Origin: Streptomyces tuirus
GTDB taxonomy: Bacteria; Actinomycetota; Actinomycetes; Streptomycetales; Streptomycetaceae
Assembly: GCF_014701095.1 (NCBI RefSeq)
Contig: NZ_AP023439.1
Location: 5,506,001-5,570,000 of the forward strand
Reading direction: 5' to 3'
DNA: 64,000 bases
Shown here: one piece after another, positions 5,198 through 38,783 of the stretch
Numbering within the stretch: position 1 is the stretch's first letter
How the letters are laid out: every line of letters begins with the position of its first letter
Translations under genes and position numbers: made by a program
The notes under the pieces: generated by a model
Told to the model about the DNA's origin: nothing
The model's input: only the letters and a program-made list of their open reading frames with translations
Databases searched by the model: none

Positions 5198-5923
5198 TCA
5201 CGCGCGCGGCCCCGGCCGATCCGGCGACGGTGCCGCAGCGCTCGCGCGTGCGGCGCACAGCACGTCGACACGGTTCGTCGTGATCGAGTCCACGCCCGCC
5301 TCCAGCAGCCGCCGCATGGAGCGGCGGGTGTCGGGGGTCCAGACGGACAACAGATGTCCGTCGCGGTGCACGCGCTCGGCGAGAGGGCGGTCCACCAGGG
5401 AGAAGCGGTAGTTGAGCCAGCGCGGGCGGATCGCCTCCAGCAGGACGGGCCGCGGCGGGGCCAGCGTCGTCCAGGTGAGGGCGATCTCGGCGCCCGGATC
5501 CACCGCGCGCACGGCGAGCATGGCGTCGGCGCCCGCGCAGTAGTAGACGCGCTCCGCCGCCCCGGCCTCCTCCACCACGCCCATGATCCGGCGCACCGCC
5601 CGCACATCGGGCGACCCGGGCAGGTCGATCATCACCCGGTGCCCGCCGGTCGCGGCCAGTGCCTCGGCCAGGGCCGGCACCCCGCCGCCGGTCAGCCCGC
5701 GCACCTCCTCGAAGGACAGCGCGTTCAGCGGCCGTTCGTGCTCCCACAGGCGCTTCAGTGTCGCGTCGTGCAGCAGCACCGGCACGCCGTCCCGGGTGAG
5801 CCGTACGTCGATCTCCACCGCGTCCGCGCCCCGGCGCAGGGCGGAACGCAGCGAGGCGACGGTGTTCTCACGGACGCGGTAGGGGTCGCCGCGGTGGGCC
5901 ACGGCGACCGGGGCGGGGGTCAC
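5198..5923 (-). CDS. glycerophosphodiester phosphodiesterase family protein
   Basis: 241 residues from a GTG start that overlaps the upstream stop (GTGA, 5923-5920). The N-terminus has the GDPD signature HRGDPYRVRENT, followed by the metal-binding EIDVRLTRDGVPVLLHD block. A late W-T-P-D...GVDSITTNR segment closes the TIM barrel. The family hydrolyses glycerophosphodiesters to glycerol 3-phosphate and an alcohol, using a divalent metal. No signal peptide is visible, so it should act in the cytosol. It is translationally coupled to the deaminase gene, although no metabolic link between the two is obvious. Confidence 0.88.
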   Translation of the reverse strand: MTPAPVAVAHRGDPYRVRENTVASLRSALRRGADAVEIDVRLTRDGVPVLLHDATLKRLWEHERPLNALSFEEVRGLTGGGVPALAEALAATGGHRVMIDLPGSPDVRAVRRIMGVVEEAGAAERVYYCAGADAMLAVRAVDPGAEIALTWTTLAPPRPVLLEAIRPRWLNYRFSLVDRPLAERVHRDGHLLSVWTPDTRRSMRRLLEAGVDSITTNRVDVLCAARASAAAPSPDRPGPRA

Positions 5924-6981
5924 CGGGCGAGCCACTGCGCGGTGTACGTGTCGATCTCGCCGGCGATCCGGGCCTTGCCCGCCGCGTCCAGGAAGGACGC
6001 CTCGACGGCGTTCTTCGCCAGCTCGGCCAGGCCCCGCTCGTCGAGCGCGAGGAGCCGGGCGGCGACCGCGTACTCGTTCTCGAGGGTCGTGCCGAACATG
6101 GGCGGGTCGTCGGAGTTGATGGTCACGAGGATCCCGGCCCGCACGAACTCCTTGATCGGGTGCTCGTCGAGGGTGCGCACCGCGCGCGTGGCGATGTTCG
6201 ACGTCGGGCACACCTCCAGCGGGATCCGGTGCTCGGCGAGGTGCGCGAGCAGCTTCGGGTCCTGCGCGGAGCTGGTGCCGTGCCCGATGCGCTCGGCCCG
6301 CAGATGGGTCAGCGCGTCCCACACCGTCTGCGGTCCGGTCGTCTCCCCGGCGTGCGGTACGGAGTGCAGCCCCGCGGCGATCGCCCGGTCGAAGTACGGC
6401 TTGAACTGCGGCCGCTCCACACCGATCTCGGGCCCGCCGAGCCCGAAGGAGACCAGGCCCTCGGGGCGCAGCCGGTCGTCGGTGGCGAGCCGGGTCGTCT
6501 CCTCGGCGGCCTCCAGACCCGCCTCGCCGGGGATGTCGAAGCACCAGCGCAGTACGGTCCCGAACTCGGCCTCGGCGGCCTTGCGGGCGTCCTCGATCGC
6601 CTCCATGAAGGCCCGCTCGTCGATGCCGCGCCGGGTGGACGAGAAGGGCGTGACGGTCAGCTCGGCGTACCGCACCTGCTGCCGGGCCAGGTCCCGGGCC
6701 ACCTCGTAGGTCAGCAGCCGGACGTCCTCCGGGGTACGGATCAGGTCGACGACCGACAGGTAGACGTCGATGAAGTGCGCGAAGTCGGTGAACGTGAAGT
6801 AGTCGACCAGCGCCTCGGGGTCGGTCGGAACCTTCGAGTCGGGGTGCCGCGCGGCCAGCTCGGAGACGATCCGGGGGGAGGCGGATCCCACGTGGTGAAC
6901 ATGCAGTTCGGCCTTGGGCAGTCCCGCGATGAAGGCCTTCAGCTCGCGTGGGGCGCGGGGGTCGACGAGATGCTCGGTCAA
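5920..6981 (-). CDS. adenosine deaminase-family enzyme, probably aminodeoxyfutalosine deaminase
   Basis: 353 residues. I chose the TTG start at 6981 because GGGGAGG precedes it at good spacing and the amino-acid similarity begins there. Metal-site and catalytic motifs of the adenosine deaminase superfamily are present: HVH near the N-terminus, HAGE, ERIGHG, PTSN and NSDDPPMF. The N-terminal motif reads HVHHVGSASP, not the HLDGSLRP of classical adenosine deaminases. COG1816 members of this type from Streptomyces were shown (from memory, the S. avermitilis Sav2595 work) to deaminate 6-aminodeoxyfutalosine in menaquinone synthesis. I therefore favour that substrate over adenosine, but the sequence alone does not settle it. 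Confidence 0.8.
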   Translation of the reverse strand: MTEHLVDPRAPRELKAFIAGLPKAELHVHHVGSASPRIVSELAARHPDSKVPTDPEALVDYFTFTDFAHFIDVYLSVVDLIRTPEDVRLLTYEVARDLARQQVRYAELTVTPFSSTRRGIDERAFMEAIEDARKAAEAEFGTVLRWCFDIPGEAGLEAAEETTRLATDDRLRPEGLVSFGLGGPEIGVERPQFKPYFDRAIAAGLHSVPHAGETTGPQTVWDALTHLRAERIGHGTSSAQDPKLLAHLAEHRIPLEVCPTSNIATRAVRTLDEHPIKEFVRAGILVTINSDDPPMFGTTLENEYAVAARLLALDERGLAELAKNAVEASFLDAAGKARIAGEIDTYTAQWLAR

Positions 6982-33270: not shown

Positions 33271-34971
33271 ATGGCGAACGTACCGGTCCAGCGCATGTCC
33301 CAGTTGTTGGCGAAGACGTTGCGCGACGACCCGGCCGACGCCGAGGTCCTCAGCCACAAGCTCCTCGTCCGCGCCGCCTACGTCCGCCGTACCGCCGCCG
33401 GCATCTGGAGCTGGCTGCCCCTGGGTAAGAAGGTGCTGGCCAACGTCGAGCGGATCGTCCGCGAGGAGATGGACGCCGTCGGCGCCCAGGAGGTCCTGCT
33501 CCCCGCCATCCTGCCGCGCGAGCCCTACGAGGCCACCGGCCGCTGGGAGGAGTACGGCCCCGAGCTGTTCCGCCTCCAGGACCGCCGGGGCGGCGACTAC
33601 CTCCTCGGCCCCACCCACGAGGAGATCTTCACCCTCCTGGTGAAGGACCAGGCGTCCTCCTACAAGGACCTGCCGGTCATCCTCTACCAGATCCAGAACA
33701 AGTACCGCGACGAGGCCCGCCCCCGCGCCGGCATCCTGCGCGGCCGCGAGTTCCTGATGAAGGACTCCTACTCCTTCGACACCGACGACGAGGGCCTCGC
33801 CAAGTCCTACGCCCTGCACCGCGAGGCCTACCAGAAGATCTTCGCGCGCCTCGGCCTCGACTACCGCATCTGCGCCGCGACGGCCGGCGCCATGGGCGGC
33901 TCCAAGTCCGAGGAGTTCCTCGCCCCGGCCGAGGCCGGCGAGGACACCTTCGCCGACTGCCCGAACTGCGACTTCGCCGCCAACACCGAGGCGATCACGT
34001 ACGAGCTGACGTCCGTCGACGCCTCGGACGTGCCGGCCGCCGAGGACATCCCCACCCCCGACACCCCCACCATCGAGACCCTCGCCGCCTCCCTCGGCGT
34101 CCCGGCCTCGGCCACGCTGAAGAACCTCCTCGTGAAGGTCGACGGCGAGATCGTCGCCGTCGGCGTCCCCGGCGACCGCGAGGTCGACATGGACAAGGTC
34201 GAGGCGCACTTCGCCCCGGCCACCGTCGAGCTGGTCACCGAGACGGACTTCGCGGCCCGCCCCGACCTGGTCCGCGGCTACGTCGGACCGCGGGGCCTTG
34301 AGAAGGTCACATACATCGCCGACCCGCGCGTCGCCCCGGGCACGGCCTGGATCACCGGCGCCAACAAGGCCGGCACGCACACGAAGAACGTGGTCGTGGG
34401 CCGTGACTTCGAGGTCGGCGAGTACGTCGACGTCGTCGTCGTGCAGGAGGGCGACCCCTGCCCCAAGTGCGGCACGGGCCTCGTCCTCGACCGCGCCATC
34501 GAGATCGGCCACATCTTCCAGCTGGGCCGCAAGTACGCCGACGCCCTCAAGCTCGACGTCCTCGGCCAGAACGGCAAGCCGGTCCGCGTCACCATGGGCT
34601 CCTACGGCATCGGCGTCTCCCGCGCGGTGGCCGCCCTGGCCGAGCAGACCGCCGACGACAAGGGCCTGTGCTGGCCCGCCGAGGTCGCCCCGGCCGACGT
34701 CCACGTGGTCGCCGCCGGCAAGGCCCTGCAGACCGAGCTGGCCCTCGACATCTCCGGGAAGCTGGCCGCGGCCGGTGTCCGCGTCCTGGTCGACGACCGC
34801 CCCGGCGTCTCCCCGGGCGTCAAGTTCACGGACTCCGAGCTGATCGGCGTACCGAAGATCCTCGTGGCCGGCCGGCGCGCGGCCGACGGCGTGGTGGAAC
34901 TGAAGGACCGCCGCACCGGCGAGCGCGAGGAACTGACGGTCGAGGAGGCCGTCGCCCGCCTCACGGCATAG
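33271..34971 (+). CDS. proS: prolyl-tRNA synthetase, bacterial type with editing insert
   Basis: 566 residues, ATG with GCAGGAGCAGAGGAACC upstream. Class-II motifs: motif 2 [19 protein letters not shown], motif 3 [18 protein letters not shown], and a GPTHEEIF region. The INS editing domain, which clears Ala-tRNA(Pro), fills about residues 235-395. A C-terminal anticodon-binding domain follows ([12 protein letters not shown]...LVDDR...[11 protein letters not shown]). It charges tRNA(Pro) in the cytosol. The organisation is fully canonical. Confidence 0.96.
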
Positions 34972-35124: not shown

Positions 35125-36024
35125 CTACAGCCAGCTCGCGAACTCCAGCAGCAGCTCCGCGTCACGCGGCCGTCCGACCCGCCCCGCCCGCACGCCCGAC
35201 TCCACGGCACGGAACAGCGTCCAGCCCCGCAGCCGCTCCTGGTCCACGTCCAGGGACTCCGCCAGCCGCTTCACCCGGCGCCGGGTGGTGCCCGCGCCGG
35301 ACGGCTGGGCGATCAGGTCCTCCACCCGGTCCCGGACCAGCCGGGCCAGATCGAAGGCACACTCGCCAACCACCGGGTCGGGCCCCACCGCCAGCCACGG
35401 CATCCGATCCCCGCCGAGCACCTTGCTCTGCCGGAACGTGCCGTGCAGCAACCGGTGTTCGGGCGGCGCGGCCAGCAACTCCTCGCGCGCCGCGAGCGCC
35501 AGACCGACCAGCGGGGCCACCTCGGGATCGGCCTGGGCCCGCGCCCGCATCGCCTCGGCCTGCCGCCCGGTCCGGTCGGCCACGGTCTCGAAGGGGAAGT
35601 CGGCGGGCGGCTCCACCCACAGCCGCCGCAGCGTCCCAGCCGCCTCCAGCAGCGCCTTCGCCTCCGGCAGCGACCGCACCGACACGTCCGGATGCAGCCG
35701 CTCCAGCAGCAGGACCCCTTCCGCGGAGACGGGTTCGAGCAGCTGCACGGCACCCCGCCCGGCCCAGTGCGCCAGCGCGGCCCGCTCCGCCTCCGGGCGG
35801 GCCCGGGGCGGTGCCAGCTTGAGCACGGCGGGCGTCCCGTCGGCGGCCCGCACCAGCACGACCAGGCTGCTGCGCCCGCCGGGCACCTGCACCCGCTCCA
35901 CGGTCAACTCGCGTAGCGCGACGGCCTGCTGCGCCGCCTCGGGCAGCTTCTCCAGCCAGTCGTCACCGTCCGGCGCCGTCTCACCGAGCGCCCTGACCAG
36001 ACGCTTCGGCGGTTCGAAAACCAT
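35125..36024 (-). CDS. APH-fold protein of the streptomycin/hydroxyurea kinase type, predicted pseudokinase
   Basis: 299 residues. The fold and order match APH(6)/hydroxyurea phosphotransferases: a small ATP lobe with the lysine retained in VLKL (about 69), and a late GECAFDLARLVRDRVEDL helix. The catalytic loop, normally HGDxxxxN, reads HGTFRQSK (194-201). The metal-binding IDPKP segment reads VGPDP (213-217). Both key aspartates and the asparagine are gone. It is therefore unlikely to phosphorylate anything and may bind a ligand or a protein. It is last in a minus-strand trio with a DUF4439 protein and a lipoprotein, 48 bp after the former. Confidence 0.75.
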   Translation of the reverse strand: MVFEPPKRLVRALGETAPDGDDWLEKLPEAAQQAVALRELTVERVQVPGGRSSLVVLVRAADGTPAVLKLAPPRARPEAERAALAHWAGRGAVQLLEPVSAEGVLLLERLHPDVSVRSLPEAKALLEAAGTLRRLWVEPPADFPFETVADRTGRQAEAMRARAQADPEVAPLVGLALAAREELLAAPPEHRLLHGTFRQSKVLGGDRMPWLAVGPDPVVGECAFDLARLVRDRVEDLIAQPSGAGTTRRRVKRLAESLDVDQERLRGWTLFRAVESGVRAGRVGRPRDAELLLEFASWL

Positions 36025-36072
36025 GCGCGAGTCGTTCCCTTCGTGCTGTCCGCGGTGCGTGCCCGGCCCGGG

Positions 36073-36537
36073 TCACGCCGTCGGCGCCGCCGAGGGCGGG
36101 GCCGTGCCGGCCCGCTCGGCGAGCCCAGGGAAGGCTACGCTCTCGCCGCGCCAGCGCACCGCCCGCACCGCCGCCTCCCGCAGCGCCTCGGCGGCCAGCG
36201 CCCGCCGCCCACCGCCCGCCGCCCGCACCAGGTCGGCATACACGCCCGCCACCCCGTCCTCCAGCTCGGCCGCGAGCCGCACGGCCGCCGCCGAGTCCGG
36301 CACCCGGAAGGGCAGCGCGTAACCGGCGGACGCGGCCACCGGCCGGCCCCCCAGGTCCTTCACCTCGCGCACCAGCGCATCCCTGCGCGCCCGGTGCGCG
36401 TCGTACGCCGTGCGTGCCTCTGTGCGCTGCCCGTCGCCGATCCTCCCGCCGACGATGCCGTAGCCGTACACCGCCGCGTGCTCGGCCGCCAGCGCCGCCT
36501 GCAGGGCGCGCAGCTCCCGGTCCTTCTCCTCGCTCAC
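36073..36537 (-). CDS. DUF4439 ferritin-like protein
   Basis: 154 residues from a GTG that overlaps the upstream stop (GTGA, 36537-36534). All-alpha, with ALAAEHAAVYGYGIVGGRIG and ELEDGVAGVYADLVRAA. The EH residues in the first helix and E/D residues in the third fit a ferritin-like four-helix bundle, but the second metal ligand set is not obvious. A soluble partner of the lipoprotein encoded before it. Function unknown. Confidence 0.8.
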   Translation of the reverse strand: MSEEKDRELRALQAALAAEHAAVYGYGIVGGRIGDGQRTEARTAYDAHRARRDALVREVKDLGGRPVAASAGYALPFRVPDSAAAVRLAAELEDGVAGVYADLVRAAGGGRRALAAEALREAAVRAVRWRGESVAFPGLAERAGTAPPSAAPTA

Positions 36538-37064
36538 GCGTCACCCTCCGTCAGCAGATACACGTGCGCCGCCCCGGCCGCCGCCACCGACGCCAGCAGC
36601 CGTGCCAGCTCACCCGGCGCCCCGCCCAGCGCCTTGACCCGCCGGTCGGCGAGCTCCCGCTCCGCCGCGGCGAGCCCGGCGAGGGCGTCCTTGTCGTTCC
36701 CCGGCACGGTCGCGGACGGGGCGGGCGAGCCCGACGGCGTCACCGAGGGAGACGCGGAAGAGGGCGATGCTTTCCGGCCACCGCCGAAGGCGCGCGCGTG
36801 CCGGTCGACCTCCTCGCGCAGCGGCCCCAGCCGGCCCGCGAGCCCCGGACGGGCGGCGATCACCGCGTCGTAGCGCTCCACCAGACCCTCGCTGTCCCGG
36901 GCCGCACGCGCGCGTGCCCGGTCCGCCGCCGACGTGTCCTCGCCGGCGGGTCCGCCGGAGTCCCCGCCGGTGCAGCCCGTCAGGGCGAGGGCCGCCGGGG
37001 CGACGGCGAGCAGACTCCTTCTGCGCGGCCCCGAGCGGGCACGCGGCGATGAGGGGAAGGGCAC
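36534..37064 (-). CDS. lipoprotein of unknown function, in an operon with DUF4439
   Basis: 176 residues from GTG 37064, with GAGGA 8 nt upstream; the frame is open further back but lacks a signal sequence there. A twin-arginine-like start (GPRRRSLLAVAP) leads to the lipobox LTGC (cysteine near 31). A Ser/Pro/Thr-rich linker occupies about 95-120. The rest is helical and similar in style to DUF4439 (LAAAERELADRRVKALGG). Exported and membrane-anchored. The pairing with a ferritin-like protein hints at a redox, metal or envelope role, not provable here. Confidence 0.7.
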   Translation of the reverse strand: MPFPSSPRARSGPRRRSLLAVAPAALALTGCTGGDSGGPAGEDTSAADRARARAARDSEGLVERYDAVIAARPGLAGRLGPLREEVDRHARAFGGGRKASPSSASPSVTPSGSPAPSATVPGNDKDALAGLAAAERELADRRVKALGGAPGELARLLASVAAAGAAHVYLLTEGDA

Positions 37065-37281
37065 GTCGGACGTCCTCGGGGGCTCGTTTCGAGAAACATG
37101 CGAGAAAGAAGGGAGTGCAAGGGCTGCATGCCCGTGATCACGGTACCCGGGCCCCGGCCCGGCATCACTCAGCGGCACCGTTCGTGACCGGGTGGACGGC
37201 AACACTCCCCGCGACCGGATACCCTTTGACCAGACACGCGCCCCATCCCACAACAGCACACGCGGCCGAGGAGTCACCCGG

Positions 37282-37782
37282 ATGAGCACCACCCAGAGCG
37301 AGAGGCTGCGAGAACTGCTGGAGCCGCTCGTCACCTCTCAGGGCCTGGACCTCGAAGAGATCGAAGTGGACTCCGTCGGACGCAAACGTGTGCTGCGTGT
37401 GGTCGTCGACTCGGACACGGGCGCCGACCTGGATCTGATCGCCGATGTGAGCCGCGCGCTCTCGGCGAAGCTCGACGAGACCAACGCGATGGGCGAGGGC
37501 GAGTACACCCTCGAGGTCGGCACCCCGGGCGCGGAGCGCCCCCTCACGGAACACCGGCACTACGTCCGCGCCACGGACCGGCTGGTGAAGTTCCAGCTGT
37601 CCGAGGGCGGCGAGCTGGTCGCCAGGATCCTGAAGGTCGACGACGAGGGTGTCGACACCGAGGTGCCCGGAGTGAAGGGCCGCAAGGCCACCGCGCGCAG
37701 AATCGCCTTCGACGACATCGTCCGGGCGCGTGTCCAGGTCGAGTTCAGCCGCAAGGACAACAAGAAGGAAGAGGAGGCGTAG
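37282..37782 (+). CDS. rimP: ribosome maturation factor RimP
   Basis: 166 residues from ATG 37282 (GAGGAG about 9 nt upstream). RimP features: an N-terminal [18 protein letters not shown] domain and [10 protein letters not shown] at the domain junction, then an SH3-like C-terminal domain ending in a Lys/Glu tail. It binds the 30S pre-ribosome and aids assembly of the uS12 region. First gene of the rimP-nusA-infB operon and only 2 nt from nusA. Confidence 0.94.
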
Positions 37783-37784
37783 CC

Positions 37785-38783
37785 GTGGACATCGACATGA
37801 GCGCCCTGCGGGGCTTGGTTCGGGAGAAGGAGATCTCCTTCGACCTGCTGGTCGAGGCGATCGAGTCCGCCCTCCTCATCGCCTACCACCGCACCGAGGG
37901 AAGCCGCCGCCACGCGCGCGTGGAGCTCAACCGGGAGACCGGCCATGTGACCGTGTGGGCGAAGGAGGACCCCGACGACCTCGAGGAGGGCCAGGAGGCC
38001 CGCGAGTTCGACGACACCCCGTCCGGCTTCGGCCGTATCGCCGCCACCACGGCCAAGCAGGTCATCCTGCAGCGCCTGCGCGACGCCGAGGACGACGCGA
38101 CGCTCGGCGAGTACGCCGGCCGTGAGGGCGACATCGTCACCGGCGTGGTCCAGCAGGGCCGCGACCCGAAGAACGTGCTCGTCGACATCGGCAAGCTCGA
38201 GGCCATCCTGCCGGTGCAGGAGCAGGTGCCGGGGGAGACCTACCCGCACGGCATGCGCCTGCGCTCCTACGTCGTCCGTGTGGCCAAGGGCGTCCGCGGT
38301 CCCTCCGTCACCCTCTCGCGCACCCACCCCAACCTGGTGAAGAAGCTCTTCGCCCTGGAGGTGCCGGAGATCGCCGACGGTTCGGTGGAGATCGCCGCGA
38401 TCGCCCGTGAGGCCGGTCACCGCACCAAGATCGCCGTACGGTCCACCCGCTCCGGCCTGAACGCCAAGGGCGCCTGCATCGGCCCCATGGGCGGCCGGGT
38501 ACGCAACGTCATGGGCGAGCTGAACGGCGAGAAGATCGACATCGTCGACTGGTCGGAGGACCCGGGCGACATGGTGGCGAACGCGCTGTCCCCGGCCCGC
38601 GTCTCCAAGGTGGAGATCGTGGACATGGCGACCAGGTCGGCGCGGGTGACCGTGCCCGACTACCAGCTGTCCCTGGCCATCGGCAAGGAGGGGCAGAACG
38701 CCCGTCTCGCGGCCCGGCTGACCGGCTGGCGCATCGACATCCGCCCGGACACGGAACCGGCCGGGAACGGCTCCGAGGAATAG
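37785..38783 (+). CDS. nusA: transcription termination/antitermination factor NusA
   Basis: 332 residues from GTG 37785. Domains in order: NusA N-terminal RNA-polymerase-binding domain (about 1-120, with [22 protein letters not shown]), S1 ([23 protein letters not shown]), and two KH domains ([30 protein letters not shown] and [25 protein letters not shown], each split by turns). It lacks the C-terminal acidic repeats of E. coli NusA, as is normal in actinobacteria. Confidence 0.95.

Follow-up and report, generated by a model that had tools for sequence, protein, structure and literature searches.

What does a core locus of Streptomyces gain from a kinase-family protein that has lost the residues of kinase chemistry? 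The question is raised by a 299-residue protein encoded in a 64,000-nucleotide stretch of the Streptomyces tuirus chromosome (contig NZ_AP023439.1, positions 5,506,001 to 5,570,000, here called the window), whose source genome (G000) is a single contig of 7.56 Mb. Its gene is the last of three on the minus strand, after those of a lipoprotein and a DUF4439 protein, in the interval between genes which we take to be proS and rimP-nusA. By sequence the protein is a predicted pseudokinase that descends from small-molecule kinases; sister genera carry catalytically intact orthologues at this locus, and the catalytic residues have been lost repeatedly and in order. We think that it is probably a non-catalytic binding protein derived from a working APH_6-type kinase. 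The features of the gene are as follows.

35125..36024, minus strand: kinase-like protein, 299 amino acids, predicted pseudokinase, ATG start, APH_6_hur family
35422..35445, minus strand: HGTFRQSK, residues 194-201, with the catalytic Asp replaced by T196 and the metal-binding Asn by K201
35380..35388, minus strand: VGP, residues 213-215, with the metal-binding Asp of IDP replaced by G214
35818..35820, minus strand: K69, retained ATP-lobe lysine (VLKL), conserved in Streptomyces and in the intact sister-genus group
35785..35787, minus strand: E80, retained, candidate partner of K69 as kinase anatomy would pair them

The protein matched the Pfam family PF04655 (APH_6_hur) with 272.1 bits (cut-off 27) over profile positions 2-252 of 252, and did not reach the general APH model. 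In the translation, the catalytic motif HGDxxxxN reads HGTFRQSK and the metal-binding IDP reads VGP. A search with the single sequence gave no solved relative at E≤1. When a profile of 23 family members was compared with PDB sequences, the two motifs aligned with HGDLWNGN and iDP of 3f7w, a putative fructosamine-3-kinase, and with HSDIHAGN and iD of 3i0o, a spectinomycin phosphotransferase, in both cases over a short stretch and with an E-value of 0.0016. The top chain of this search, the circular repeat protein 7rdr, was discarded as a sum of weak repeats only. Because the motif columns were matched to solved kinases, T196 is assigned to the catalytic Asp, K201 to the metal-binding Asn and G214 to the metal-binding Asp, and the window protein has none of the three. 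It is thus a pseudokinase by family membership without catalytic residues, and inactivity is predicted; since the required residues are gone, Mg-dependent phosphotransfer would be lost.

The family name would suggest a working resistance kinase, acting on streptomycin or hydroxyurea. This reading has the PF04655 match in its favour, together with hur of S. aureofaciens, which acts by hydroxyurea phosphorylation according to the accessible part of PMC3335164. Like the APH(6)/Hur kinases (StrA, Hur), the window protein belongs to one hidden Markov model family over the full domain and keeps the ATP-lobe Lys and the catalytic-loop His; unlike them, it lacks the catalytic Asp, the metal Asn and the metal Asp, and sits at a constant core locus beside housekeeping genes. 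The NCBIfam equivalog model for APH(6) gave only 90.4 against a cut-off of 325 and so was not reached. The genome also has two further PF04655 matches (L002 and L003), at least one of which keeps Asp, Asn and Asp: the L002 protein (G000:C1:3396041-3396760) reads HWDLHDEN and IDP. So we give a resistance function hardly any credence, and agree with the first-pass annotation of this DNA, made from the letters alone, that automatic naming as an antibiotic kinase would mislead. As background, the accessible part of PMC3335164 reports that soil sequences of this superfamily show variable Mg-binding motifs, and that on its tree, besides strA, function is confirmed for hur alone.

Loss of the Asn and the metal Asp runs through all the Streptomyces orthologues sampled. 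A strong match (E≤1e-64) was present in 147 of 150 Streptomyces genomes and any match in 149. The tally covered 182 same-genus rows, 160 of them distinct, and N201 and D214 were absent from all 160. Position 214 was G in 159 and A in one, and position 196 was T in 122, D in 15, A in 8, N in 7, E in 6, S in 1 and C in 1. Meanwhile K69 and H194 were kept in 160/160 and E80 in 159/160. The main Streptomyces set consisted of 80 loci, among which the kinase-like proteins were 83-97% identical and all carried T, K and G at positions 196, 201 and 214. Of 21 family members encoded at other loci, one in the window's genome and 20 in a phylum sample, all kept the Asn and the metal Asp and 20 kept the catalytic Asp. 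With 160/160 orthologues altered against these near-intact members, the motif change is not a matter of chance. The motif changes and the retained lysine, which had been pointed out in the first-pass annotation, are thus confirmed by the translation, the PDB profile alignment and the conservation of K69, and its prediction that canonical kinase chemistry is lost stands for the genus.

Three Streptomyces genomes gave no strong match: G046 had no kinase match, and G050 and G102 had weak ones. G046 and G102 had neither DUF4439 nor a nusA match, and G112 was also without a nusA match. Because nusA was missing too, the absences in G046 and G102 are probable assembly gaps and were not counted as losses. 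G046, G102 and G112 were rated 91-99% complete with nusA not found, and contigs are probably missing. In G050 nusA was present; this genome has a completeness rating of 82% and is split into 1770 contigs.

The gene is kept under selection. The ratio of nonsynonymous to synonymous substitution rates (dN/dS) was estimated pairwise by the Nei-Gojobori method (NG86) for the 80 Streptomyces loci, using pairs with a kinase dS of 0.1-0.6. The median was 0.187 for the kinase-like gene (2634 pairs), 0.176 for proS (2243), 0.187 for a GNAT gene (1571), 0.245 for rimP (2470), 0.298 for DUF4439 (2487), 0.548 for the lipoprotein (2337) and 0.072 for nusA (2423). The constraint on the kinase-like gene is therefore like that on proS, and the gene is not a relic. 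Close pairs (dN <0.15) gave 0.220 in Streptomyces (66 pairs) against 0.223 in the intact orthologues of sister genera (48 pairs). An earlier run with 0.55 for the intact group and 0.22 for Streptomyces was set aside for synonymous saturation, the intact group having a median dN of 0.34. Among the columns at least 95% conserved in both groups, 52 were unchanged and only one was switched, D214G.

In a survey of 54 genomes from 16 other Streptomycetaceae genera (among 100 genomes), 52 matched strongly, with an E-value of 8e-47 or lower; G906 had a paralogue-level match only and G894 none. These orthologues were 45-57% identical to the window protein, and in 46 of the 52 all three catalytic residues (catalytic Asp, Asn and metal Asp) are in place, reading HGD, or H[TA]D in L331-L333 and L335-L337, followed by IDP or VDP. 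They share with the window protein one clade and one genomic position (49/52), and differ in the three catalytic residues, all of which the window protein lacks. Support for the clade of locus orthologues was 99/97 when 20 representatives were placed against 32 relatives from elsewhere and three DUF4439-adjacent kinases from other families. The two intact proteins tested, L317 and L362, reached the general APH model and narrowly missed the cut-off for fructosamine kinase. The first-pass annotation had named orthologues with intact HGD and IDP motifs as a refutation of its reading; such orthologues do exist outside Streptomyces, so the pseudokinase state is a derived one and does not belong to the orthologues as a whole.

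The other six sister-genus orthologues are degenerate. Written as catalytic Asp, Asn and metal Asp, they read D,N,G (L354), D,N,N (L360), D,N,S (L361), D,R,G (L358), D,G,G (L350) and E,A,G (L368). In genus g324 the metal Asp was replaced in three ways (G in L358, N in L360, S in L361), and the other four sampled members were intact.

The history of these changes was followed on a tree of 111 rows built with the motif columns removed. Parsimony on the best tree gave seven changes for the metal Asp, four for the Asn and seven for the catalytic Asp. Some nodes near the losses were weak by the Shimodaira-Hasegawa-like approximate likelihood ratio test (SH-aLRT; L360 11, L358 29, the L354/Streptomyces fork 53) and some branches were long (L350 0.9, L358 0.65, L368 0.49, L354 0.42, and also L365), so the counting was done over 1000 bootstrap trees as well. 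Changes of the metal Asp numbered 5 in 21 trees, 6 in 628, 7 in 350 and 8 in 1; those of the Asn 3 in 88, 4 in 891 and 5 in 21; those of the catalytic Asp 6 in 3, 7 in 907 and 8 in 90. Such counts do not separate gain from loss, and most changes are read as losses because all eight outgroup rows and the deepest family branch were intact. By its sequences, then, the core-locus kinase seems to have given up catalysis in Streptomyces and several times in other genera.

The states also formed a nested pattern: wherever a family row had the metal Asp (46 rows), the Asn and the catalytic Asp were kept too, and the rows without the metal Asp kept both others (three rows), the catalytic Asp alone, or neither. 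Every row agrees with a sequence of losses that begins with the metal Asp, goes on to the Asn and ends with the catalytic Asp, and each step may have permitted the next. A migrated metal ligand at D216 was considered and rejected, as this position was variable across diverse rows.

Could the gene then be a relic that is being lost and is kept merely by its position in a transcription unit? The repeated loss of catalytic residues and the long branches of several non-Streptomyces losers would agree with it. Against this stand the dN/dS of 0.19 in Streptomyces, the strong match in nearly every genome of the genus and the absence of internal stops in the orthologues listed, and we consider decay very improbable.

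In the explanation we favour, a working APH_6-type small-molecule kinase would have become established between DUF4439 and proS in the common ancestor of Streptomycetaceae. The metal-binding Asp and Asn would have been lost in the Streptomyces ancestor, the catalytic Asp later in several Streptomyces lineages, and the metal Asp again in other genera, so that the window protein should be incapable of canonical Mg-dependent phosphotransfer. The rest, including the glycine pair G49-G50, K69, E80 and H194, has been kept by purifying selection, and the protein would bind a nucleotide without metal, or the substrate of the ancestral kinase, and act as a regulator or scaffold. A binding role is favoured because of the strong constraint and the kept ATP lobe.

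Several points weigh against it. The K69, E80 and glycine residues that are kept may do no more than support folding. The structure model of the kinase-like protein was poor (mean predicted local distance difference test score, pLDDT, 59.4; residues 192-227 below 50) and leaves the nucleotide pocket unseen; its best structural match was an APH(2'')-type kinase, 3tdv, with a Z of 7.8 and a root-mean-square deviation (rmsd) of 12.9, and Foldseek gave no match at E≤0.001. The dN/dS values come from NG86 on GC-rich genes with non-independent pairs and carry a risk of synonymous saturation. Finally, three positions of the altered loop were newly conserved, R198 in 152/160, Q199 in 159/160 and K201 in 145/160, which may mean new chemistry.

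The protein could accordingly still be an enzyme, by cation-independent phosphotransfer like CASK, or by another ATP transfer via R198, Q199 and K201, residues kept in most Streptomyces orthologues. The accessible part of PMC4718504 describes CASK as active without cations, lacking the metal Asp and keeping the glycine loop and the beta-3 lysine, and 15 of the 160 orthologues still have the catalytic Asp with the Asn and metal Asp gone. The window protein, however, is without the catalytic Asp too, position 196 varies over seven residues, which is unlike a new catalytic residue, and with D216 not conserved no compensating acid is found there. We therefore hold an atypical enzyme to be unlikely, and prefer the non-catalytic binding protein.

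Does the protein belong with the two genes that precede it? The neighbouring features are the following.

36073..36537, minus strand: DUF4439 protein, 154 amino acids, homologue of M. tuberculosis Rv2844 (2ib0), GTG start
36534..36537, minus strand: GTGA stop/start overlap of the lipoprotein and DUF4439 genes, read in the sequence
36534..37064, minus strand: Tat-type (twin-arginine translocation) lipoprotein, 176 amino acids, GTG start, RRR...LTGC, predicted four-helix bundle
36972..37025, minus strand: twin-arginine and lipobox segment, residues 14-31 of the lipoprotein, a motif
33271..34971, plus strand: proS, convergent, bounding the locus (Pfam tRNA-synt_2b, tRNA_edit, HGTP_anticodon)
37192..38783, plus strand: rimP (37192-37782) and nusA (37785-38783), divergent neighbours, open reading frames in an order kept in relatives

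The three minus-strand open reading frames (ORFs) and the GTGA overlap at 36537-36534 were already described in the first-pass annotation and are present. A 4-nucleotide overlap between lipoprotein and DUF4439 was seen in at least 21 of 39 diverse same-genus loci, and in the window 48 nucleotides separate the DUF4439 stop from the kinase-like start. Scans for sigma-70-type promoters and terminators found none, and defence-system models gave no match at E≤0.01.

Linkage was nearly complete within the family. Of the 80 Streptomyces loci, 79 had the kinase gene immediately after DUF4439 and in the same orientation, as had 38 of the 39 diverse same-genus loci and 49 of the 52 from other genera. 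The exceptions were few. In L108 the sequence before the kinase is masked (794 of 1201 bases are N), which accounts for the missing DUF4439 match, and L364 lies at a contig end. In L338 (G879, 5900-6360) an intact kinase stands beside rimP with neither DUF4439 nor the lipoprotein in the short gap, and in L350 (G883) a degenerate, long-branch kinase lies away from DUF4439 on the opposite strand, with a different order around proS. The upstream gene of L193 was a presumably helicase-like ORF running into the DUF4439 tail, probably a misassembly.

Beyond the family the picture differs. DUF4439 was found in 193 of 246 genomes of the class, and only 4 of 23 DUF4439 regions outside the family (16 and 7 from two fetches) showed a kinase match: L231, L232, L369 and, as a 49-bit fragment, L371. 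The first three keep the metal Asp, and the loops read, NTDFHYLN in L231 and HTDLHYEN in L232, have the Asp and Asn. A common origin of these DUF4439-adjacent kinases with the locus kinase was rejected, as L231, L232 and L369 fell outside the locus clade (L371 was not placed). Judged by the spread of DUF4439 and the position of these outside kinases, the three genes go together at the level of the family, and the wider unit is the DUF4439/lipoprotein pair. The proposed conservation of the trio thus holds within Streptomycetaceae and fails across actinobacteria. In L231 (4452-7786, G157) a VIT-family gene (PF01988) lies between a DUF4439 fusion protein and the APH_6-type kinase; as we take VIT proteins to act on iron or manganese, it hints at a link to one of these metals.

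The DUF4439 protein matched PF14530 with 157.6 bits (cut-off 28.8) and 2ib0, M. tuberculosis rv2844, with E=9.2e-17. Ferritin-like di-iron proteins have the ligand pattern E, ExxH, E, ExxH. Over 123 DUF4439 rows, E19 (118), H48 (122) and E93 (122) were near-invariant and position 121 was E or D in 93; the complete di-iron set is not present, since the residue three before H48 was Y in 81/123 and there is no His at 124.

The lipoprotein had no significant Pfam match. It was modelled as a four-helix bundle whose helices have, for the most part, a pLDDT of about 90. Against Dps, bacterioferritin and rubrerythrin the model gave Z of 13.5-14.6, values that the mere arrangement of helices in a bundle can produce; the best was M. 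smegmatis Dps1 (Z 14.6, 3.7 Å over 122 residues), again in a range reached by unrelated helical models. Against 2ib0 the Foldseek probability was 1.00 with an E of 0.24, and no match was found at E≤0.001. The modelled resemblance to ferritin-like proteins is therefore a lead. In 90 loci, H89 was conserved in 78, E135 in 79, H167 in 77, R15 in 85 and the lipobox Cys in 83. R15 was kept in 35/37 diverse same-genus loci and 43/44 other-genus loci, and C31 in 35/37 and 40/44. The protein has the marks of a Tat lipoprotein and its export is predicted. As neither partner shows a complete set of di-iron ligands, a metal role is no more than a possibility; the envelope link suggested in the first-pass annotation is likewise only possible.

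In sister genera the two partners are in places fused. A script found DUF4439 and a clean twin-arginine lipobox in one ORF in 11 of 14 loci of g219 and 3 of 7 of g324; the script is crude, and its flags on L004, L086, L087 and L192 stem from gene overlap, while those on L170, L185, L188, L323, L326 and others are matches without a clean Tat lipobox. BLAST placed lipoprotein and DUF4439 in one ORF also in L323, L358 and L361. In L317 (2463-3602, g219), the fused ORF carries a Tat lipoprotein signal, and Pfam placed DUF4439 at residues 249-378 of 380. These fusions suggest that the lipoprotein and DUF4439 form one exported unit. In Streptomyces, where the DUF4439 protein is separate and has no evident signal of its own, it might leave the cell together with the lipoprotein.

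It is possible that the kinase-like protein is functionally tied to this pair. It could even belong to their system, perhaps acting on one of the two proteins in the cytoplasm ahead of export. The near-constant place downstream of DUF4439 speaks for this, as do the non-clade APH_6-type kinases that adjoin DUF4439 or lie close to it in three further families. DUF4439 is widespread, however, while the locus kinase clade was confined to one family in the sample; the kinase of L338 is intact without partners and that of L350 lies apart from DUF4439; and the fused Tat signal would place DUF4439 outside the cell, with no export signal evident in the kinase. We regard such a partnership as improbable. 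Rv2844 is a homologue of the window's DUF4439 protein; in the regions fetched outside the family, no locus-clade kinase was found beside DUF4439.

Known pseudokinases offer partial likenesses. CASK resembles the window protein in having lost the metal Asp with the glycine loop and lysine kept, and the accessible part of PMC4718504 lists CASK and STRADalpha with nucleotide bound without cation. Both are eukaryotic pseudokinases of protein-kinase lineage, and in the window protein the catalytic Asp is gone as well, so the likeness would be one of analogy. The ActPs (PMC12599244) are likewise conserved pseudokinase families of actinobacteria; in the accessible part of that source, the bacterial pseudokinases descend from serine/threonine protein kinases, whereas the one described here would come from a small-molecule family named for antibiotic resistance. 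Literature searches, in which subscription journals were largely outside reach, returned nothing on DUF4439, nothing combining pseudokinase, Streptomyces and aminoglycoside phosphotransferase, and nothing on this protein among the matches listed. The locus tags, presumably SCO5700-SCO5702 and possibly off, gave no literature match either, while two papers mention Rv2844 or Rv2843.

For annotation there is a warning here: one of the PF04655 matches to be expected in Streptomyces is a core gene that probably confers no resistance. Intact and degenerate forms at one locus also allow a direct test of what survives when catalysis is given up. We propose, tentatively and with some doubt, that this core-locus kinase never had phosphotransfer as its essential task. 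Its machinery would have been lost some six or seven times in one family, in a way that always agrees with the order metal Asp, Asn, catalytic Asp, with the protein itself kept in place throughout and under tight constraint in Streptomyces. If this is true, Streptomycetaceae would hold a natural replicate series of conversion from enzyme to pseudoenzyme, with intact orthologues of the same locus as controls.

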